A DNA stretch of 64,000 bases from Altererythrobacter sp. Root672 (GTDB lineage: Bacteria; Pseudomonadota; Alphaproteobacteria; Sphingomonadales; Sphingomonadaceae). A program made the translations under genes and the position numbers. Positions 13,354-58,580 of the stretch are shown in pieces; the stretch's first letter is position 1, and every line of letters starts with the position of its first letter. The stretch spans positions 1,736,001 to 1,800,000 of the forward strand of contig NZ_LMHH01000001.1 in assembly GCF_001427865.1 (NCBI RefSeq). Direction: 5' to 3'. Below the pieces are notes generated by a model that did not search any database, was not told the DNA's origin, and saw only the letters and a list, made by a program, of their open reading frames with translations.

Positions 13354-13980
13354 ATGGCCAACGACAATGACATCAAGCGTGACGTGGAAGCCCAGCTCCG
13401 CTGGGATCCCGACATCGATACCACCGACATCTCGGTGTCGGTCCACGACGGCGTCGTCACGCTCACCGGATTCGTCCGCAGCTACAGCCAGAAATACGAA
13501 GCCGAAAAGGAGGCGAAGTCCGTGCGCGGGGTCCGCGGCGTGGCGAACGACATCGAGGTCAAGCTGCCGAGCCTCAACCAGCGCGCCGATCCGGAGATCG
13601 CGCGCGAGGCGGCCGAGGCGCTCAAGCGCGAGCTGCCCTATTCGAGTGAGCAGATCAAGGTCGTCGCCCGCGATGGTTGGCTGACGCTCGAAGGCGAGGT
13701 CGACTGGAAGTTCCAGAGCGAGCGCGCGGAAAAGGCGGTCCGCCGGATCAAAGGCCTCAAGGGCGTGAGCAACCTGATCAAGATCAAGCCGCGGGCCGCG
13801 CCGAGCGAGGTCAAGGAGCGGATCGAGGAAGCCCTCAAGCGGACTGCCGAGATCGATGCGCAAAAGATCACCGTCGAGGTGTCGGGCAACGAAGTGACGC
13901 TGCGCGGCACGGTGCGCTCCTGGCTCGAGCGTCTGAGCGTAGAGCACCCATCACATCTCGACATCAGGAGGTTGCAATGA
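13354..13980 (+). CDS. Triple BON-domain protein, C-terminally altered
   Basis: A 208-residue protein with three BON (OsmY-like) repeats of about 65 residues: DVEAQLRWDPDIDTTDISVS, EAAEALKRELPYSSEQIKVV and RIEEALKRTAEIDAQKITVE. BON domains bind phospholipid membranes. No signal peptide is visible, so this may act in the cytoplasm or at the inner membrane. The third repeat breaks off after LRGTVRSWLER and continues with an unrelated tail (LSVEHPSHLDIRRLQ) that overlaps the hdeD ribosome binding site and start; normal BON tails carry a Gly/Val-rich final strand. It looks like a 3' truncation by recombination. Expression should depend on the operator at 13283-13296. Confidence 0.85.
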   Translation: MANDNDIKRDVEAQLRWDPDIDTTDISVSVHDGVVTLTGFVRSYSQKYEAEKEAKSVRGVRGVANDIEVKLPSLNQRADPEIAREAAEALKRELPYSSEQIKVVARDGWLTLEGEVDWKFQSERAEKAVRRIKGLKGVSNLIKIKPRAAPSEVKERIEEALKRTAEIDAQKITVEVSGNEVTLRGTVRSWLERLSVEHPSHLDIRRLQ

Positions 13981-14600
13981 CGACGGTGTTTGACCTTGGA
14001 ATCGAACGCGACCCGGACATTGGCCGACTTGCCGAGCTGTGGTGGGTGGTCGCCTTGCGCGGGGCCTTTGCCGTCGCGCTCGGCATCATGGCCGTGATCT
14101 GGCCGATCGCGACCCTGTTCACGCTCGTACTGGTGTTCGCGGCCTATTGCGTCGTGGACGGGGTGTTTTCGATCATCCTCGCGGTGCGCGGAGCCAAGCG
14201 CCACGAACGATTCTGGTGGTGGTCCGCGCTCTACGCCGTGGCCGCGTTGGCTGCCGCGGCAGTCGCGGTTCTCTATCCCGAGATCACCATGCTGGTCTTC
14301 GTGGCCACTTTGATCGCTTGGGCGCTGCTCCACGGGGCCTTCGCGATTGCCGCGGCAGTCCGGCTCGGCCGCGCGAATGGTCGGGCGTGGCTCGCCGCCA
14401 GCGGGGTCGCCTCGCTGATCCTCGCGGCGTTGTTGGTGGCGTGGCCGGCGATCGGGCTGTTCACGTTGACCTGGATGTTCGCGTTCTACGCCCTCACGGC
14501 AGGCATCACGCTGCTGGGATTGGCGCTTCGCCTGCGCGCGCGGCATTCGCTCGCGAGAAGCGGCAAGTTCGGCGAGCTGGAGACACCGGGCGCCACCTGA
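13977..14600 (+). CDS. hdeD: HdeD family membrane protein
   Basis: A 207-residue integral membrane protein with six hydrophobic helices (for example WVVALRGAFAVALGIMAVIW, LFTLVLVFAAYCVVDGVFSI and the final segment LTWMFAFYALTAGITLLGLA). Spacing and the repeated Gly/Ala-rich hairpins match the HdeD family, linked to acid stress in enterobacteria. The ATG at 13977 follows AGGAGG 6 nt upstream and overlaps the BON stop codon (ATGA), so translation is probably coupled. It belongs to the same transcription unit as BON and hence to the operator-controlled island. Confidence 0.88.
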   Translation: MTTVFDLGIERDPDIGRLAELWWVVALRGAFAVALGIMAVIWPIATLFTLVLVFAAYCVVDGVFSIILAVRGAKRHERFWWWSALYAVAALAAAAVAVLYPEITMLVFVATLIAWALLHGAFAIAAAVRLGRANGRAWLAASGVASLILAALLVAWPAIGLFTLTWMFAFYALTAGITLLGLALRLRARHSLARSGKFGELETPGAT

Positions 14601-50027: not shown

Positions 50028-50428
50028 CGGGTCCCCTCCTCGGGCAGCAGCGCCAGCCGCCCGCTGGCGAGCTGGCGCCCGACGCGCTCGACGAACGTCG
50101 CGAACCGGTCGCGCCCGATGGCGCGTGCCGCCTCGTCGCCGTCCGCCACCGGCGGGGTCACGGTCAGCATGTAGCGCACGAACAGCGCCAGGCTTTCGAG
50201 CTCGACGTGGCCGTTTCGCTCGATCCGCGCGAGCTGGCCAGAGATCCGGTCGAGCCGGACTGCAAAACGCTGTTCGAGCGCATCGAACCCCTGCCTGTCG
50301 AGCCAGGCTTCGACCGCAGTCGCGAGCAGCCGCGACTTTGAGGCGCCAGGCGCCAAGGCAAGTTGCTCGAACCTCTCGGCAAGGGGCGCCGGCAGGAAAA
50401 GCTGATAGCGGATCGACGAACCGGCCAT
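50024..50428 (-). CDS. CopG/RHH-type regulator of the tra operon
   Basis: A 134-residue protein. The N-terminal segment IRYQLFLPAPLAERFEQLAL with GASKSRLLATAVEAWLDRQG is a ribbon-helix-helix motif of the CopG class; a helical C-terminal region follows (RLDRISGQLARIERNGHVEL). Such genes stand between traG and trbB in sphingomonad and Rhizobiales conjugation loci. It could control the operon. It overlaps traG stop and trbB start. Confidence 0.85.
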   Translation of the reverse strand: MAGSSIRYQLFLPAPLAERFEQLALAPGASKSRLLATAVEAWLDRQGFDALEQRFAVRLDRISGQLARIERNGHVELESLALFVRYMLTVTPPVADGDEAARAIGRDRFATFVERVGRQLASGRLALLPEEGTR

Positions 50429-52422
50429 CAGAAGCTCGGGACCAGATCGTCGCCGCGCGCCGATCCCTCGTTGACCCCGTGGGCGGCAACGACCGGCGCC
50501 AGAGCCGCGGGCGCAACGGACGCTACACCGTCATCCTCGATGTCAAAGCCGAGCAGGTCGAGTTGATCGGGCGACGGCGTCTTGCGCCGCCGGCGGGACG
50601 GCAGGACGGGCTCGCGTGCCTGTTGCAGGCCGCCGTCCGCTGCGCCTGGGGCCTCCCCTGCCCGATCCAACGAAACGACGCTCGCCACATAGCCTGCCCA
50701 GTCGTGCCGACGCGGCTCGGGCGCGTCGGCCCAGGCACCGCCGAAGTCCATGACCGGCGGCGGCAGGACGCGGCTCGCGAAATTGCGATCCTCGTAGTAG
50801 CGCAGCTTGCTCGCGCGGACGGGGGCGAGCCCCGAAACCAGGACCAGTTCGTCGCGCGGATCGAGTTGCATGACCTCGCCCGGAGTCAATAAGGGACGCG
50901 AGGTCTCCTGGCGGCTGACCATGACATGCGCGAGCCACGGCGCGAGGCGGTGCCCGGCATAGTTGCGCATCGCGCGCAGCTCGGTTGCCGTGCCAAGCGC
51001 ATCGGAGATGCGCCGCGCGGTACGCTCGTCATTGGCGGCGAACGCCACCCGCACGTGGCAGTTGTCGAGGATCGCGTTGTTCTCGCCGTAAGCCTTGACG
51101 ATCTGGTTGAGCGATTGCGCGATGAGGAAGGCCCGCACGCCGTAACCGGCGAGGAACGCCAGGGCGGTCTCGAAGAAGTCTAGCCGCCCGAGCGCCGGGA
51201 ACTCGTCGAGCATGAGCAGCAGCTGCCGGCCGCCGGGCTTCTCGGGCAGGCGCTCGGTCAGCCGCCGGCCAATCTGGTTGAGCACCAGTCGCACGAGTGG
51301 CTTGGTGCGCGAGATGTCGGAGGGCGGAACGGCGAGGTAGAGCGTGACCGGCCGCGCGCCTTCCATGAGATCGGCGATCCGGAAGTCGCATTCCGCGGTA
51401 GCGGAAGCGACCGTCGGGTCGCGGTAGAGCGAGAGGAACGAGACCGCGGTCGAGAGCACGCCCGAGCGCTCGTTGTCCGACTTGTCGAGCAGTTCGCGGG
51501 CCGCTGCTGCAACGACGGGATGAACGCCGCTCTCGAGATGACGCGTGCTCATCATGGCGCGCAAGGTCGCGGCAAAGCTGCGCCCGGGATCCGACAGCAG
51601 CGCCGCGACACGCGCCAGGGTCTTCTCCTCTTCGGCGTAAAGCACGTGCAGGATCACGCCCACGAGCAGCGCGTGACTGGTTTTCTCCCAGTGGTTGCGG
51701 CGCTCGAGGGCACCCTCGGGATCGACGAGGATGTCGGCGATGTTCTGGACGTCCCGGACCTCGTGTGCGCCCCGCCGCACCTCGAGCAAAGGGTTGTAAC
51801 GCGCCGAGCGGGCGTCGGTCGGATCGAAGAGAAGGCAGTGCGAGAACCGCGAGCGCCAGCCGGCAGTCAGCCGCCAGTTCTCGCCCTTGATATCGTGGAC
51901 TACCGCCGATCCGGTCCACGAGAGCAGGGTCGGCACGACCAGCCCCACGCCCTTGCCCGAGCGGGTGGGCGCAAAGACCATGACATGGTCGGGCCCCTCG
52001 TGTCGCAAGTACCGCCCGGCAAACCGTCCGAGCATCACTCCGCGCTCACCGAGCAGTCCGGCGCGCTCCACTTCGCCGACCCCGGCCCAGCGCGCCGACC
52101 CGTAAGTCGTGACCAATCCCGTCTGCCGCGCGCGCCAGAGCGATCCGCCGATCGCCGCCGCGCAGCCCAGAAACCCGCTCGTTCCGGCGAGCGCCCCCGC
52201 GCGATCGAACACATGAGGCGCATAGGCCTCGTAATGGTACCACCACGCGAAGAGGGCCCAGGGGCGATAGACCGGCAGGTTGCCCGCCACGAACCAGGCG
52301 GGCCCGAGCCGCGGCTGATAGCCGAGCATGGCCGCGGCCCACTGGGTGCCGACCCACACGCCGAGCCCCATGATCGCAAACACGACCAGGATCTGCCCGA
52401 TCAGGAGTTTCGTTGGAGTCAC
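50428..52422 (-). CDS. traG: Conjugal coupling protein TraG (VirD4-like)
   Basis: A 664-residue membrane ATPase that delivers the relaxase-DNA complex to the channel. Two N-terminal membrane helices (LIGQILVVFAIMGLGVWVGT) precede the ATPase: Walker A VFAPTRSGKGVGLVVPTLL, DIKGENWRLTAGWRSRF, Walker B LLLMLDEFPALGRL and FLIAQSLNQIVKAYG. GTG 52422 (VTPTKLLIGQ) is taken as start, with AGGGAATGC upstream; frames to 52692 have no membrane feature. First gene of the trb operon. Confidence 0.95.
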   Translation of the reverse strand: MTPTKLLIGQILVVFAIMGLGVWVGTQWAAAMLGYQPRLGPAWFVAGNLPVYRPWALFAWWYHYEAYAPHVFDRAGALAGTSGFLGCAAAIGGSLWRARQTGLVTTYGSARWAGVGEVERAGLLGERGVMLGRFAGRYLRHEGPDHVMVFAPTRSGKGVGLVVPTLLSWTGSAVVHDIKGENWRLTAGWRSRFSHCLLFDPTDARSARYNPLLEVRRGAHEVRDVQNIADILVDPEGALERRNHWEKTSHALLVGVILHVLYAEEEKTLARVAALLSDPGRSFAATLRAMMSTRHLESGVHPVVAAAARELLDKSDNERSGVLSTAVSFLSLYRDPTVASATAECDFRIADLMEGARPVTLYLAVPPSDISRTKPLVRLVLNQIGRRLTERLPEKPGGRQLLLMLDEFPALGRLDFFETALAFLAGYGVRAFLIAQSLNQIVKAYGENNAILDNCHVRVAFAANDERTARRISDALGTATELRAMRNYAGHRLAPWLAHVMVSRQETSRPLLTPGEVMQLDPRDELVLVSGLAPVRASKLRYYEDRNFASRVLPPPVMDFGGAWADAPEPRRHDWAGYVASVVSLDRAGEAPGAADGGLQQAREPVLPSRRRRKTPSPDQLDLLGFDIEDDGVASVAPAALAPVVAAHGVNEGSARGDDLVPSF

Positions 52423-52894
52423 GCCGCATTCCCTGCCGGCACCGCGCCGGCGTTTCGGGAGCGATGGATCGCGCGATCGCGGCGCGGGCGACAGGCCGCC
52501 CTGGACGCACCCGAACGCAGCATGACGAATCTCGATCGAGTTCGACTGCGGAGCCCTCGCGGATATTGAATCGAGCCGAAGCGCGCGGCGTCGTCTCCAG
52601 GATGGCCGTTGCTGCGTCAGATCGCCCGGACGATGCTTTTCGAGTCCGGTCTCGCCGTCAGCTGTCGCTACAGAAGCGAGAATTTCCTCCAATTCGAGGA
52701 CAACGGAATACCATGACCATCGTAAATATGATCAGCGGACGTCCAAAAACGAAGTTATTCGTTGGGGCGCCACTCGCCCTTGTCAGCCGCAACGTCTATT
52801 CTGCCGGAAATTAATAAAGTGGACCGTTGTTTCTCAAGGATTCCTGTTGTAACCGAATACGCGGCTACGAGTTCTAAAGCACGGGGGGTGTGCA
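52423..52894. other. Divergent promoter region
   Basis: 472 nt between traG (minus) and the SH3-MBL gene (plus). It must contain both promoters. GC content falls toward 52895, unlike the neighbouring coding DNA. No ORF or repeat is convincing. Confidence 0.4.
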
Positions 52895-54172
52895 ATGAGG
52901 ACTTTCCGATACGTGGCCGCGTGCATCTCGGTGGCGCTGACAGCGCTGACGCCGGCAGCTGCGCACGCACAGGATCTAGTGGTCAATCGCAATGTGACTG
53001 TCCGCGAGGAGCCGGACCGGGACACCCCGGTCATCGACTATGCCGTTCCTGGCGACACCTTCGATGTGCTCGACGCAGGGCAACGGCAGAACGGCTATTA
53101 CCATGTTCGCCTGCCCGACGCTCGCGAGGGCTGGGTCTACCAGACGTTCGTTCGCCGGCTGAATCCGGATGCGTTAGTCGCAGCCGTAAGGCCCGACGAA
53201 ATGGTCGTCCATTTCATCGACGTCGACCAGGGCAACGCCGCGCTCCTCGAGTTTCCCTGTGCGGCAGTGCTCATCGACCTCGGCGGCCGCGGCGATGATG
53301 CCGCGATGCATCTCCTGGCCTACCTCAGGAAGTTTTTCGAGCGCCGGACCGATCTCAACCGCCGTTTTGCCGCAGTCTACGTCACCCACACGCACGTCGA
53401 CCACAACAGCAACCTCAAGCGCTCGATCGATGGGCGCTACCTGGTGGGATCATACATCCACAACGGGAGGCTGAACGGTTCGGGACGCCCCGACGCTGTC
53501 TGGATGGCGAGCTACCTGACCGCACAGTCGCCCGACATCGTGGGGCTGGCCATATCAGAGTCCGAGGTCGAAGCCGCTGGTCCAGGAGGACTGACAAACG
53601 CGGCGATCGACCCTGTGCAGTGTGCCGGGGTCGATCCGCAATTCCGGGTTCTCGCGGGAGGACGCGCGACCAACCCGGGCTGGTCGAATGACGATTTCAA
53701 GAACGGCAACAACCACAGCGTCGTCATTCGCGTCGACTTCGGAGAAGCCTCGTTCCTGTTTCCGGGCGACCTTGAAAACGCAGGGATAGCCGATTTGCTG
53801 ACGCGTTACGCGGGGACCGGGCTGCTTGATGTCGATGTCCTCGAGGTAAGTCATCACGGCGCGGAAAACGGCACCACTCCGGCGCTGCTGAGCGCGCTCT
53901 CTCCCGAGATCGCGATCATCTCGATGGGTCCGGAGCGTATCCAGCAACAGTGGACCGCCTACGATTATGGGCATCCACGGCAACTGACCGTGCAGGCGCT
54001 CGATCAGGCGGTGTCGGGCTCGCGACCTCGCAGGACAGTGCGCGTCGCCAGCGGTCAGGAGACCTTCGTCGATTTCGACCTCGACCGCGCAATCTACGCA
54101 ACGGGCTGGGACGGCGACATCGTACTCACCGCAAACCGTTCAGGGGCCTTGAGCGTCCGAACGACGCACTAG
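52895..54172 (+). CDS. Exported SH3 + metallo-beta-lactamase-fold protein (ComEC C-domain type)
   Basis: A 425-residue protein. It has a signal peptide (MRTFRYVAACISVALTALTP, cleavage after AHA), a bacterial SH3 domain (residues 27-85: VVNRNVTVREEPDRDTPVID, GYYHVRLPDAREGWVYQTFV) and an MBL fold: VHFIDVDQGNAALLEFP, the metal motif YVTHTHVDHNSNL, HSVVIRVDFGEASFLFPGDL and VSHHGAENGTTPALLSAL. The arrangement resembles the ComEC/Rec2 MBL domain detached and exported. It is 15 nt upstream of the DUF2235 gene, so they are co-transcribed. Reaction unknown; nuclease or hydrolase activity is possible. Confidence 0.8.
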   Translation: MRTFRYVAACISVALTALTPAAAHAQDLVVNRNVTVREEPDRDTPVIDYAVPGDTFDVLDAGQRQNGYYHVRLPDAREGWVYQTFVRRLNPDALVAAVRPDEMVVHFIDVDQGNAALLEFPCAAVLIDLGGRGDDAAMHLLAYLRKFFERRTDLNRRFAAVYVTHTHVDHNSNLKRSIDGRYLVGSYIHNGRLNGSGRPDAVWMASYLTAQSPDIVGLAISESEVEAAGPGGLTNAAIDPVQCAGVDPQFRVLAGGRATNPGWSNDDFKNGNNHSVVIRVDFGEASFLFPGDLENAGIADLLTRYAGTGLLDVDVLEVSHHGAENGTTPALLSALSPEIAIISMGPERIQQQWTAYDYGHPRQLTVQALDQAVSGSRPRRTVRVASGQETFVDFDLDRAIYATGWDGDIVLTANRSGALSVRTTH

Positions 54173-54187
54173 CCGTCAGGTAACAGC

Positions 54188-55408
54188 ATGGCCAAGTCAC
54201 CGACACCTCCGCAAGGCCGCAATCTTGTCGTTTGCTGCGACGGGACCAACAACGAGATCGGCGTACTGCTCTCGAATGTCCTCAAGCTCTACCGGATCGC
54301 CGACAAGAACGCGGAGCAGATTACCTACTACAGCCCCGGCATCGGCACGATCGCCATGCCGGACGCCTGGGGACGGTGGCGCCAGCTGGCGCGATCCTTC
54401 TTCGAAATGGGCACCGGGGCCGGGCTCGATCGCGACGTGCTCGCCGCTTACTGCTTCTTGTGCCGTCACTATCGCGACGGCGACAAAATCTTCCTCTTCG
54501 GCTTCAGCCGCGGGGCCTACACCGTTCGGGTGGTAGCCGGGTTCATCTACCTGATCGGCCTGCTGCGCGAGCACCAGATGAACTTCGCCGGCTACGCGCT
54601 GAAGGCGTACAAGGCCGCGAGCGAGACGGATAACTACAGGGTCGCCCAGGACTTTCAGCGGGTGGTGACCCCGCAATGCGTCCCGATCCATTTCATGGGC
54701 GTATGGGACACGGTTTCCTCCGTGATAGTGCCGGGGCGCGCGCCGTTCTCGAAGCTCAGGCTCGAAGAACTTCCCTACACCTCAAACAACCCCGCGGTTG
54801 AGACTTTCCGCCACGCCATCGCGATCGACGAGTTCCGTCGCATGTTCCGCGTCAAACGCTGGGACGAGCCGCAGGATTTCAAGTTCAATCCCCACTCGGT
54901 GATCAAGTCCCCACTTAAACAGGACATACGCCAGGTGTGGTTTGCAGGCTGTCATTCCGATGTCGGCGGAGGCTTCATCGAGAAACAGAGCGCGCTGTCC
55001 AAGTTTCCGCTTCTGTGGATGCTGGAGCAGGCCAAGGATCACGGGCTCCATATCCGAACGGCGATGGTCAATCACATCGTCAAGGGTCATCCGCGGGTCA
55101 ATGCCCGCACCTATGAAAAGCCCGACGCGGCCGGACCGCTGCATATCTCGATGAAATGGTATTGGCGCGTGCTCGAGATCTTTCCCAAATCTGTTCGTTA
55201 CCTCGACTGGAGGCCGCGCCGGCGGCTCCTTGGCAAGTACATCCCCTGCTGCGAACCTCGCACCATTCCCGTGGACAGCTGGGTTCACAGGTCCGTTGTC
55301 GATCGCAAGGCCCGCGTGAAGGGCTACAAACCTGTAAACTTGCCGCCCAGGTTCGAGATCGAGTCGATGACTGGCCCCCTCACGCCGCCGGCCAAACGCC
55401 GAAAATAG
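54188..55408 (+). CDS. DUF2235 alpha/beta hydrolase (Tle1-like)
   Basis: A 406-residue protein. It has the DUF2235 core: NLVVCCDGTNNEIGVLLSNV, YYSPGIGT, the nucleophile elbow FLFGFSRGAYTVRVVAGF (G-x-S-x-G), the Asp-bearing MGVWDTVSSVIVPGR and the His motif VWFAGCHSDVGGGFIEKQSA. Family members include type VI secretion phospholipases (Tle1) but this one lacks a secretion adaptor domain or signal peptide and no type VI genes occur nearby. It pairs with the exported MBL protein; its substrate is probably a lipid or another ester. Function here is inferred only. Confidence 0.85.
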   Translation: MAKSPTPPQGRNLVVCCDGTNNEIGVLLSNVLKLYRIADKNAEQITYYSPGIGTIAMPDAWGRWRQLARSFFEMGTGAGLDRDVLAAYCFLCRHYRDGDKIFLFGFSRGAYTVRVVAGFIYLIGLLREHQMNFAGYALKAYKAASETDNYRVAQDFQRVVTPQCVPIHFMGVWDTVSSVIVPGRAPFSKLRLEELPYTSNNPAVETFRHAIAIDEFRRMFRVKRWDEPQDFKFNPHSVIKSPLKQDIRQVWFAGCHSDVGGGFIEKQSALSKFPLLWMLEQAKDHGLHIRTAMVNHIVKGHPRVNARTYEKPDAAGPLHISMKWYWRVLEIFPKSVRYLDWRPRRRLLGKYIPCCEPRTIPVDSWVHRSVVDRKARVKGYKPVNLPPRFEIESMTGPLTPPAKRRK

Positions 55409-55443
55409 GGGTGCTCAACCCCCATCGGACGGGATTGTCATCG

Positions 55444-55570
55444 ACCATTCTGATCGATTATACTCGATCATCTTTCGATCAATGATCTCTCATACCCGAT
55501 CATTTTTGTTGACATTTGATCATCCAAAGCCGATCAATTGAGATCAGAACGATCGATCGGAGCCGATCAT
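55444..55570 (+). promoter_or_regulatory. GATC-rich operator cluster before the mobile mystery genes
   Basis: Within about 127 bases GATC occurs 11 times, mostly as CGATCA or its inverse TGATCG, in tandem. TTGACA (55509-55514) lies in the middle and could be a -35 box. The array ends at the ATG of the Xre gene (55569). Such a cluster suits cooperative binding of the Xre protein at its own promoter. Confidence 0.65.
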
Positions 55571-56033
55571 GGATACGAGAGCCTTAGCCAGAAAGCACCT
55601 TGAGCGGCGCCTTGCGCCGATCAGAGGTCAGCAAAATCTCGTTCGCCCCCCGCGCGGGTGGATTCGCGCGGTGCGCGAGGCTCTTGGCATGACCACGCGC
55701 CAACTCGCGCGCCGAATGGGCAAGGTCCAGTCTGCCGTGGTCGAGATGGAACAGAGCGAAGCACGCGACTCGATTACACTCGCGACCTTGCGTCACGCCG
55801 CCGAGGCGCTCGACTGCACGCTCGTCTATGCGCTGGTCCCCAACCGGCCGATAGACGACATGCTGCGCGCGCGCGCTGCCGATATCGCCTCGCAACTGCT
55901 CGCACGCGCCAGCCACACCATGGCGCTGGAAAACCAGGCGCTCGACCTTGCTGCATTGGAGGCAGAGCGAGAGCGCCTGATCGAGGAGATCCTGCGCCGC
56001 CCCACAGCCCGTTTGTGGGACGAGTCTTTGTGA
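55569..56033 (+). CDS. Mobile mystery protein A (Xre-type HTH)
   Basis: A 154-residue protein. A long helix is followed by an Xre HTH (WIRAVREALGMTTRQLARRM, then GKVQSAVVEMEQSEARDSIT and LATLRHAAEALDCTLVYALV), the layout of TIGR02612. It is encoded directly before the Fic gene, with GTGA overlap, as usual for the pair. By analogy with toxin-antitoxin modules it may repress transcription and neutralise the Fic protein. The GATC-rich array lies at its promoter. Confidence 0.9.
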   Translation: MDTRALARKHLERRLAPIRGQQNLVRPPRGWIRAVREALGMTTRQLARRMGKVQSAVVEMEQSEARDSITLATLRHAAEALDCTLVYALVPNRPIDDMLRARAADIASQLLARASHTMALENQALDLAALEAERERLIEEILRRPTARLWDESL

Positions 56034-56620
56034 CAGTGGATCTGTTAGCTGATGAGGACGGCAACACCCCACTCAGCGCCGAAGAGCGGCTCGGGCTTAT
56101 CCCGTCCTACGTCACCTTGCGGCAGGAGCTGAACGAGATCGAGCAGATCAACATCACAGAAGGCGAACGCTGGGCGTTTGGCCGCGCCCGCGACATCCTC
56201 GATGAAGGCTACTTGCGCGAACTTCACCGTCGCATGTTTGGCAAAGTTTGGAAGTGGGCCGGAGACTATTCACGCGAGAACAACCGCCGCATCGGCTCCG
56301 ACAGCGTCATGATCCCCCTCGATCTGCGAGGCCTTCTTGACGACGTGCGCTACTGGATCGACCATGGCACCTACCCTCCCGACGAGATCGCGCTGCGCTT
56401 CCATCACCGGCTGACCCAGATTCACCCCTTTCCCAACGGGAATGGCCGGTTTTCCCGCCTGGCGGCCGATCTTCTCGCGGTGCACCTGGGACAGCCCCGC
56501 TTCACCTGGGGCCGCACGAATCTCGTGGAGGCGGGTGCTACGCGGCGGCAATACATCGATGCACTTCGCGCCGCCGACGGTCACGCCATCGACTCGCTCC
56601 TGGCGTTCGCGCGTTCCTGA
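56030..56620 (+). CDS. Mobile mystery protein B (Fic domain)
   Basis: A 196-residue Fic protein (TIGR02613-type). The catalytic motif is complete: RLTQIHPFPNGNGRFSRLAA (HPFx2GNGR), so AMP transfer (or another nucleotide) to target proteins is predicted. Upstream helices such as LRELHRRMFGKVWKWAGDYS resemble the Fic core. No obvious inhibitory (S/T)xxxE(G/N) helix was identified in the protein, so inhibition may come from the partner. It starts with GTG 56030 overlapping the Xre stop codon. Confidence 0.92.
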   Translation: MTVDLLADEDGNTPLSAEERLGLIPSYVTLRQELNEIEQINITEGERWAFGRARDILDEGYLRELHRRMFGKVWKWAGDYSRENNRRIGSDSVMIPLDLRGLLDDVRYWIDHGTYPPDEIALRFHHRLTQIHPFPNGNGRFSRLAADLLAVHLGQPRFTWGRTNLVEAGATRRQYIDALRAADGHAIDSLLAFARS

Positions 56621-56621
56621 C

Positions 56622-58580
56622 TCACCGTTCGATCTCGGGCCCCCGCCGGATCGTCCAGCTGGTGCCGGCCTCGCGCATGATCCCGGAGACCTGCTTTCCG
56701 ATGGCGCGCCCGAGCACAGGCCGCCACGGCACCAGCGAGAACTCGCGGCTGTTCTCGACAACCGCGAACCGTCCCGAGGGCAGGTCGAGCCGCCGCGCCA
56801 CAAGGCCCTCGACTCGAATACCCTCACCCGGGTCGACGTAGTCCTTGCCGGTCTCGCGCGCATAACCCGCGGCTACGCGCAGCAATTCCCGGCGCCTCAG
56901 CAACGCCAGCGTCCCGGTGCCCAGCACGACCTCGCCCCGATGCTCGCTCGCGAGGCCACGCTGAAGCAACCAGGCGCGCCGCAGGGCCAGCGCCGCGCGC
57001 ACCTCGCGCCCGAACCCCGCGTCGCGCCCCTGTACCCCGTCGCCGGCGGCCAGCACGTCATCGAGCCAGGTGGCGCCGTCGTGCGCGGGCAAACCCTCGA
57101 GCGGAACCGGAGAGAGCACCTCGACCCCCACCGGTCGCCCCTCCAGCATGCGTGCCTCGTGCCGTTCGACGCGCGCCAGGTGATCGGCCGGAATGGCCCA
57201 GATGCCCTCGCTGTCCCGCTCGAGGCGCAGGCTTCGGCGCAAAGCCTCGAGCCGCCGTACGTGCGTCTCGATGTAGGCCGCCGTCGCGCCGGGATCGTGC
57301 CGGCGATGAAGATCGGGGCTGTACCGCCCCGAGTGGGCTGCCGCGATCGCCGATATCGTCCGATCGCTCTCGCGCACGCCGCCCGCACGCGGCACGAGGC
57401 GCACGATCGCACCGGCCGGCAAGGTCCCGATCCCATCGCCGCCGCCGATCCGCGCGTAGTGCGCGCGGCCGTCGACGGCATCGATGACGAGGTAGTGCCG
57501 GTCGCGGTGCTCGTCGTCGAGGCCCCGCGCCACGACCCGTCCGACCAGGTCCTGCCGCAAGACAGGCTCGAACACATGCTGGGCGCCGGGTGCCCGATCG
57601 AGGCCTGCGGCGGTCAGCGCGCGCTGCATCGTGCGCACGATGTCGCCGCGCTCGCCGAGCGCCCGAAGCGCATCCTCGAGACCGGCGGCCAGTTGCCAGC
57701 GACCGCCGCCGCGTTCTTCGGCCAGGCCGAGCGCCGCGAGCTTGCGCAGCCGTCCCGCCTGCAGCGCCCAGTCGAACATCGAACCCTCGCCCACAGCGAC
57801 AATCCCCTGGTCGTCCGCCATGTGCAGTATCCGGCGATCGATCTCAGTCAGCCGCTCGGCCTCGACGTCGCGCCGCAGGCGCTGCTCGATTTCGCGATCG
57901 GTACGTGGGCCGAGGTCGAGCGAGACGAGCTCGCACGCACGCTCGCGCATGCCGCGCGCGATATACTCAGGCGCGATGACCAGGTTCTCGCCGCGATCGT
58001 CCTTGCCGCGCAGGATCACATGCGTGTGCGGATGCAAGGTGTCGGCATGATTTGCCGCGACCCATTCGAGCCGCGTCCCGAGGTCGTCCTCCATCCGAGC
58101 CATCAACCGGCGAATGAGGGAACGCAAATCCTCGTACTCAGCGCCATCCTCGGCCGAGACAATGAACCGGAACTGGTGGCGGTCGCTCTCGCAGCGGGAG
58201 AGGAACGAGCGACCGTCGGCCGCATCCTCGCGAGCCGAATAGAGCTCGCCCGTGCCGCCTTCGCGCCCGACCCCGTCTCGCTGGATGTAACGCAAGTGCG
58301 CGGCGGCTGCCCCCATGCCTTTGCCCGCGAGCCGTACGAGCCGGGTCTTGACCACCGCCCGGCGCGCCCGCAGGCCAGCGCGCAAATCGCGCGAACCCAG
58401 CAGGCGTCCAGCCGCAGCGCCTCGACTCAACCGGCTGCCGGCAAACCGACGTCGCCCTGCCCTGTCGGAAAGGCCGGCCCGCATCGCCGCGGCGAGCACG
58501 CTATGAAGATACTTGCGGCCACGCTTCGAACGCGCTGATCGCATCCGGCCTATCGTCGGTTCAAAAGGGTGGTCGCGCAT
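56622..58580 (-). CDS. Relaxase of the VirD2/DUF3363 type
   Basis: A 652-residue relaxase. The histidine triad motif is WVAANHADTLHPHTHVILRG (HxDxxHPHTHV, residues about 181-200), and motif-I-like Tyr lies in AHLRYIQRDGVG. The N-terminal 90 residues are strongly basic; the C-terminal half is the DUF3363 region (LRQDLVGRVVARGLDDEHRD, and LVPWRPVLGRAIGKQVSGIM). It nicks oriT and pilots the DNA through TraG. GGAGGAACC precedes ATG 58580. It is convergent with the Fic gene, which ends one base away. Confidence 0.92.
   Translation of the reverse strand: MRDHPFEPTIGRMRSARSKRGRKYLHSVLAAAMRAGLSDRAGRRRFAGSRLSRGAAAGRLLGSRDLRAGLRARRAVVKTRLVRLAGKGMGAAAAHLRYIQRDGVGREGGTGELYSAREDAADGRSFLSRCESDRHQFRFIVSAEDGAEYEDLRSLIRRLMARMEDDLGTRLEWVAANHADTLHPHTHVILRGKDDRGENLVIAPEYIARGMRERACELVSLDLGPRTDREIEQRLRRDVEAERLTEIDRRILHMADDQGIVAVGEGSMFDWALQAGRLRKLAALGLAEERGGGRWQLAAGLEDALRALGERGDIVRTMQRALTAAGLDRAPGAQHVFEPVLRQDLVGRVVARGLDDEHRDRHYLVIDAVDGRAHYARIGGGDGIGTLPAGAIVRLVPRAGGVRESDRTISAIAAAHSGRYSPDLHRRHDPGATAAYIETHVRRLEALRRSLRLERDSEGIWAIPADHLARVERHEARMLEGRPVGVEVLSPVPLEGLPAHDGATWLDDVLAAGDGVQGRDAGFGREVRAALALRRAWLLQRGLASEHRGEVVLGTGTLALLRRRELLRVAAGYARETGKDYVDPGEGIRVEGLVARRLDLPSGRFAVVENSREFSLVPWRPVLGRAIGKQVSGIMREAGTSWTIRRGPEIER

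Follow-up and report, generated by a model that had tools for sequence, protein, structure and literature searches.

Gene content of the traG-RlxS slot

The window, that is, the whole stretch of DNA analysed here, is 64,000 nucleotides long and comes from the sphingomonad Altererythrobacter sp. Root672. Coordinates given without a locus name are positions within this window. The genes and features of the region are the following.

50428..52692, minus strand: TraG type IV coupling protein, left edge of the slot (PF02534, 352 bits)
52600..56620, no strand: lower-GC cargo slot, from traG to rlxS (GC about 0.60-0.63 against about 0.70 in both flanks)
52895..54172, plus strand: protein with SH3_3 and ComEC-type MBL domains and a signal peptide (SH3-MBL), 425 aa, as predicted from Pfam, NCBIfam and an AlphaFold model
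54188..55408, plus strand: DUF2235/Tle1-like alpha/beta hydrolase, 406 aa, as predicted from Pfam, an alignment of homologues and a model
55569..56033, plus strand: Xre-type regulator, "mobile mystery protein A", a separate cargo module (TIGR02612, over cut-off)
55994..56620, plus strand: Fic protein, "mobile mystery protein B", a separate cargo module (PF02661; TIGR02613, over cut-off)
56622..58580, minus strand: RlxS relaxase, right edge of the slot (NF041267, 876 bits; cut-off, 850)

The stop of the SH3-MBL gene (54172) and the ATG of the DUF2235 gene (54188) are separated by 15 nt, and both genes lie on the same strand. The first-pass annotation had placed two genes, separated by 15 nt, in the interval from traG to the Xre/Fic pair, and this was confirmed in position and strand. 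It had also taken these genes as cargo of a conjugative element, and the flanking TraG and RlxS genes and the base composition support this. The GC content is about 0.70 in the tra genes, only about 0.60 over 52.5-56 kb, and 0.72 in rlxS, and such a dip fits inserted cargo.

A scan for promoters and terminators at the start of the operon gave nothing exceeding chance. When PHO boxes were searched for with up to 3 mismatches, the matches were at chance level, and none of them lay near 52895 or ahead of the SH3-MBL gene; the reading of the operon as part of the Pho regulon was therefore set aside.

Immediately 5' of the Xre gene, nine TGATC/GATCA words are gathered within 160 bp (55409-55568), whereas shuffled sequence contained 0.3 of them on average and 4 at the maximum (1000 shuffles). 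Judging from the sequence, this cluster is likely to serve the Xre/Fic pair as an array of operators. No such array was seen upstream of the homologue of the Xre gene in L296. In that other element, the "mobile mystery" pair also lies directly after RlxS (L296:12656-13698), and the pair is thus a recurrent cargo of the traG-RlxS slot.

A TraG left edge recurs in L141, described below, and in ten sampled sister slots. In the 10 sampled sister elements with both edges visible, the traG-RlxS interval is about 1.2 to 8.7 kb long and its cargo is varied. PADLOC matched genes of type II and IIG restriction/methylase, Vsr, type IV restriction and SspA/DndA-like kinds in these slots, as single matches by which working systems are not proven. 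A cargo of the same length, 5581 bp, consisting of genes of no identified kind, occupies the slot in L267, L271, L273, L283 and L284. Its presence in five sampled genomes suggests recent spread.

The SH3-MBL and DUF2235 proteins

According to Pfam, the product of the first gene contains an SH3_3 domain at residues 33-86 (30.7 bits; cut-off, 27) and a Lactamase_B domain at residues 109-345 (37.5 bits; cut-off, 22.7), and we took residues 100-425 as the MBL part. The N-terminus, MRTFRYVAACISVALTALTPAAAHA-QD, is an apparent Sec signal peptide of approximately residues 1-25, as judged by eye, and this supports the export of the protein proposed in the first-pass annotation. The N-termini of the L018, L090 and L092 homologues resemble it. 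The metal motif, composed of H165-x-H167-x-D169-H170, D292 and H320-H321, is invariant at every position in 9 homologues.

The best fold match of the AlphaFold model (pLDDT 81.6) was the MBL domain of ComEC (9ic4; Z 29.6, 2.5 A, 259 residues), and the second was phosphorylcholine esterase Pce/CbpE (Z 24.6, 259 residues). Sequence profiles ranked these two in the same order (ComEC, E about 1e-36; Pce, E 3e-15). As judged from sequence and model, the protein carries a ComEC-type MBL domain with intact metal motifs. We rejected a full ComEC/Rec2 identity, because the NCBIfam ComEC_Rec2 profile gave 65 bits with the MBL part (E 3e-18) against a cut-off of 190, and because the domains are SH3 and MBL only, without the channel part. 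From its kinship with ComEC, the protein is a predicted DNase.

The product of the second gene matches the full-length profile PF09994 (T6SS_Tle1-like_cat, formerly DUF2235) at residues 11-281 with 268 bits (cut-off, 27). Residues S107 (of GFSRG), D174 and H256 are invariant in 30 homologues and align with the motifs of Tle1/TleB. The model (pLDDT 79.9) matches Tle1-type phospholipases with Z values of 17.6-20.7 (6sjl, Z 20.7; TleB 9j3f, Z 19.3). By its motifs and its modelled fold, the protein belongs to the Tle1-like hydrolases, with Ser-Asp-His intact. It has no signal peptide, so that the inner membrane would be expected to separate the two products. Pfam, profiles and fold matches thus agree with the domains assigned earlier (SH3, ComEC-like MBL and DUF2235), whereas the wall-binding type given there to the SH3 domain is taken as putative.

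Among the PADLOC-DB 2.0 models, none matched the DUF2235 protein, and the matches of SH3-MBL were weak and partial (PDC-M48B, LmuA and Avs1a). Since no one system was matched by both proteins over most of their length, a known defence system of this database was rejected as an identification. The search of phage records for DUF2235 gave none.

Relatives of the two genes and their neighbours

Full-length SH3-MBL is rare; it was found in 4 of 398 genomes of the order, namely the window's own, G742, G764 and the more distant G726. The closest homologue, that of G742 (L018/L091; 60-61% identity), sits in an integrase-bearing island, and the next, that of G764 (L090; 51-52%), adjoins apparent F-type transfer region genes. 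Neither has an adjoining DUF2235 gene, and none was found elsewhere in the L018 and L090 genomes at E<=1e-20. SH3-MBL can thus occur without DUF2235 beside it, and the pairing is not an obligatory one. The G742 island also encodes, 217 nt upstream of SH3-MBL, a 994-aa protein with a RelA/SpoT synthetase-like N-terminus (L018:6841-9825).

In G726 (L092), SH3-MBL lies directly upstream of DUF2235 with a gap of 23 nt and in the same gene order. Its MBL shows 27% identity with that of the window, and its DUF2235 is placed in another region of the tree. Thus co-occurrence outside close relatives, on which the first-pass annotation had made its proposal depend, was found in this divergent pair. The pairing claimed there recurs in L092, but it is not seen with the closest SH3-MBL homologues. 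Only two such pairs, those of the window and L092, were found, and DUF2235 is present in 2 of the 4 full SH3-MBL carriers among the 398 genomes (chance 0.03). On plasmids, no relative of SH3-MBL had 80% query coverage and none exceeded 60% identity. On viral contigs, single-protein queries gave no close relatives of SH3-MBL or DUF2235, and alignment queries gave distant relatives only.

Then 68 DUF2235 loci were compared, 60 in genomes within the order and the class and 8 in plasmid regions, with genes called by our own script. The survey covered alphaproteobacteria, plasmids and viral contigs, and the export of most partners was judged by eye. The nearest DUF2235 is that of L141, which is 67% identical and lies in the traG-RlxS slot of a related element. 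It closes a series of genes that includes bacHORMA_2, a cyclase and NucC (CBASS), and NucC is directly upstream of it. In the 68-protein tree, the window DUF2235 and that of L141 are joined with a support of 100/100, and they then join three CBASS-linked plasmid copies with 95/95. Four of the five rows in this group are CBASS-linked.

A cyclase and HNH-SAVED stand beside DUF2235 in L104, L106 and L153, and L105 has HNH-SAVED with no cyclase within reach. PtuA/PtuB (Septu) are beside DUF2235 in L108 and L110, the latter of which also adjoins TraG. Endonuclease_NS adjoins DUF2235 at five loci: it is directly upstream in L097 and L111 (24 and about 16 nt), divergent in L096 and L103, and only partly predicted in L145. 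Well below one such adjacency would be expected, on the assumption of 1-5 such genes per genome. DUF2235 was also found with an EEP nuclease (L102), with a subtilase plus MBL (L098 and L101, and according to annotation L107) and, in L093, with a cytoplasmic MBL and genes of PDC-M01 type; at some close-clade loci alkaline phosphatases or ordinary genes adjoin it.

The clade of the window DUF2235 is repeatedly found beside nuclease modules, namely CBASS, Septu, exported Endonuclease_NS and SH3-MBL, and this observation is well supported. The absence of any known-system partner, as stated earlier, holds at the window locus, but not for the nearest DUF2235 relatives, which have CBASS and Septu as partners. 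A nuclease or defence module lay within 5 genes at 19 of the 33 close-clade loci and at 1 of the 35 distant ones; this seed-based comparison overstates the enrichment, because PADLOC finds defence neighbours at distant loci too. The distant loci have mostly housekeeping neighbours, to which PADLOC adds AbiEi, ThsB, IetA and PDC-S06-type genes. A less biased comparison is that of exported nuclease-family genes adjoining DUF2235, which gave 8/33 for the close and 0/35 for the distant loci (p 0.002). The Endonuclease_NS, Septu and SH3-MBL pairings are each scattered across the tree. Partners have therefore been exchanged repeatedly, in a small number of cases in which gains and losses are inseparable.

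Directly 3' of DUF2235 at four CBASS-type loci (L104:6160-8121, L105, L106 and L153:5190-6989), there is a gene for a protein of about 600 aa, with no Pfam match and a weak PADLOC match to PDC-S71, which is a possible further partner. A run on one strand at L093:6162-14058 comprises MBL, metalloprotease-like, MBL, DUF2235, AAA ATPase and HNH-type (PDC-M01) genes and looks like a composite defence operon. In L103, a second exported EEP-type nuclease-like gene (13428-14264, by sequence) lies a few genes from the Endonuclease_NS/DUF2235 pair. A lone DUF2235 (46%) at L193:5995-7179 has repressor-like and integrase-like genes on either side, on an apparently P2-like prophage contig. Phage cargo genes often occupy the position between repressor and integrase.

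A putative defence or competition cassette and its comparison with known systems

The closest DUF2235 relatives adjoin known anti-phage systems, and the window cassette is therefore probably a putative defence or competition module. The first-pass annotation had pointed in this direction, which the CBASS- and Septu-linked relatives strengthen; the envelope modification that it also mentioned is kept as a rival below. We give about even chances to the reading as a whole, that is, to a defence or competition cassette of two genes that a conjugative element carries as cargo between traG and RlxS. What speaks for it is the sharing of this slot by L141 with its CBASS genes, the 95/95 clade, the adjacency to nucleases, the two separate SH3-MBL pairs, the Septu locus L110 beside TraG, the cargo of the sister slots and the precedent of SNIPE. 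Against it stand the closest SH3-MBL homologues with no DUF2235 next to them, the finding of only two such pairs, the defence neighbours of distant DUF2235 loci, the alkaline phosphatases or ordinary genes beside some close-clade copies, the lack of a visible sensor for the hydrolase, and the match of the MBL fold with Pce.

The genomic association is well supported, and from it we infer a mechanism as follows. SH3-MBL would be a periplasmic metallo-nuclease that cuts the DNA of a phage or a rival element coming into the cell, or it might alternatively reach the cytoplasm once the membrane is breached. Upon infection, DUF2235, as a phospholipase, would attack the inner membrane on its cytoplasmic side, and the outcome may be either abortive death or a membrane opened to the nuclease. 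In this scheme, the DUF2235 lipase would be retained from cassette to cassette, whereas its nuclease (NucC, HNH-SAVED, PtuB, Endonuclease_NS or MBL) could be exchanged. No sensor for activation of the hydrolase is visible.

More tentatively, the Tle1-like DUF2235 clade might be an unrecognised general immunity component with exchangeable nucleases, which together with exported ones would provide a two-compartment defence by a periplasmic nuclease and an internal lipase. Should the clade indeed serve in defence, an unannotated second effector would be present at many loci of CBASS, Septu and islands, and the exported nucleases beside DUF2235 would be candidates for immunity on the outer side of the inner membrane. 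In sphingomonads, the traG-RlxS slot would be a convenient site to search for further such modules. The open-access literature searched deals with DUF2235 mostly as a family of T6SS effectors and also as a lipid-acting toxin domain, with no link to phage defence.

It is unlikely, though by no means negligible, that the two genes are independent cargo, separately acquired into a hotspot and without joint action. The SH3-MBLs of L018 (60%) and L090 (51%), which go without DUF2235 either adjacent or elsewhere at E<=1e-20, the absence of MBL from most DUF2235 loci, and the many unrelated cargoes accepted by the slot would agree with this. The close spacing on a shared strand in the window argues against it, as do the presence of DUF2235 in half of the SH3-MBL carriers and the L092 pair, in which the same order is kept with a divergent MBL and a DUF2235 from a different part of the tree. 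An exported Pce-type phosphodiesterase acting on envelope phospho-groups (receptors or lipids), with the pair changing the envelope so as to bring about surface or phage exclusion, is in our opinion improbable. Pce/CbpE is indeed the second-best fold and also matches by profile, and an exported protein with an SH3 domain would fit a target in the envelope, but ComEC is better by both measures and the partners of sibling DUF2235 genes are nucleases.

We consider it very improbable that the exported nuclease and the lipase scavenge phosphorus by releasing phosphate from DNA and phospholipids. Exported alkaline phosphatases do adjoin some close-clade DUF2235 genes (Alk_phosphatase in L149/L150, PhoX in L155), but the window DUF2235 has no signal peptide, no PHO box precedes the operon, and the nearest relatives are in CBASS/Septu loci on plasmids and conjugative elements. 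We can scarcely credit an antibacterial effector pair, in which DUF2235 is a Tle1 effector delivered by a T6SS or T4SS, although the fold and catalytic residues are Tle1-like, the gene is carried by a T4SS-encoding element, and DUF2235 is among the putative X-T4SS effectors (PMC6536674). The MBL is unlike any immunity protein, and DUF2235 stops shortly after the catalytic domain, with no VgrG/PAAR/MIX or other extra domain in Pfam. Delivery by a T6SS in particular was rejected, because the sheath gene VipB is missing from the 99.7%-complete genome and Pfam gave no VgrG/Hcp/PAAR link in DUF2235 or the tested neighbours.

Compared with known systems, the window DUF2235 resembles the Tle1 phospholipase effectors (PF09994; 6sjl, 4o5p and TleB 9j3f) in the alpha/beta-hydrolase fold, the GFSRG nucleophile, the Asp and the HxDVGGG histidine. 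It differs from them in being shorter (406 aa), in its T6SS-less genome, and in its nuclease-like neighbour in a conjugative-element slot. The window MBL shares the HxHxDH, GD and HHG motifs with the C-terminal MBL domain of ComEC/Rec2 (9ic4 and 30bt), its best match by fold and profile, whereas it is stand-alone, exported and SH3-bearing, and has neither the membrane channel part nor the OB part. SNIPE is a membrane-bound nuclease that cuts injected phage DNA (PMC13190303). Its likeness to SH3-MBL is one of concept only, namely an envelope nuclease against entering DNA, and we claim no homology; SNIPE is in the membrane, whereas SH3-MBL is exported.

The Type III CBASS of L141 (bacHORMA_2-cyclase-NucC-DUF2235) has in common with the window the traG-RlxS slot, a DUF2235 of 67% identity and a nuclease gene immediately upstream. 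Its nuclease is the cytoplasmic NucC with cyclase and HORMA, whereas the nuclease-like partner in the window is an exported MBL. No SMODS domain (CBASS cyclase) was found across the window's genome, and because of this lack of a cyclase a CBASS effector was rejected there. The loci with exported Endonuclease_NS and DUF2235 are like the window in having an exported nuclease-family neighbour, and the fold of that nuclease is unrelated to MBL.
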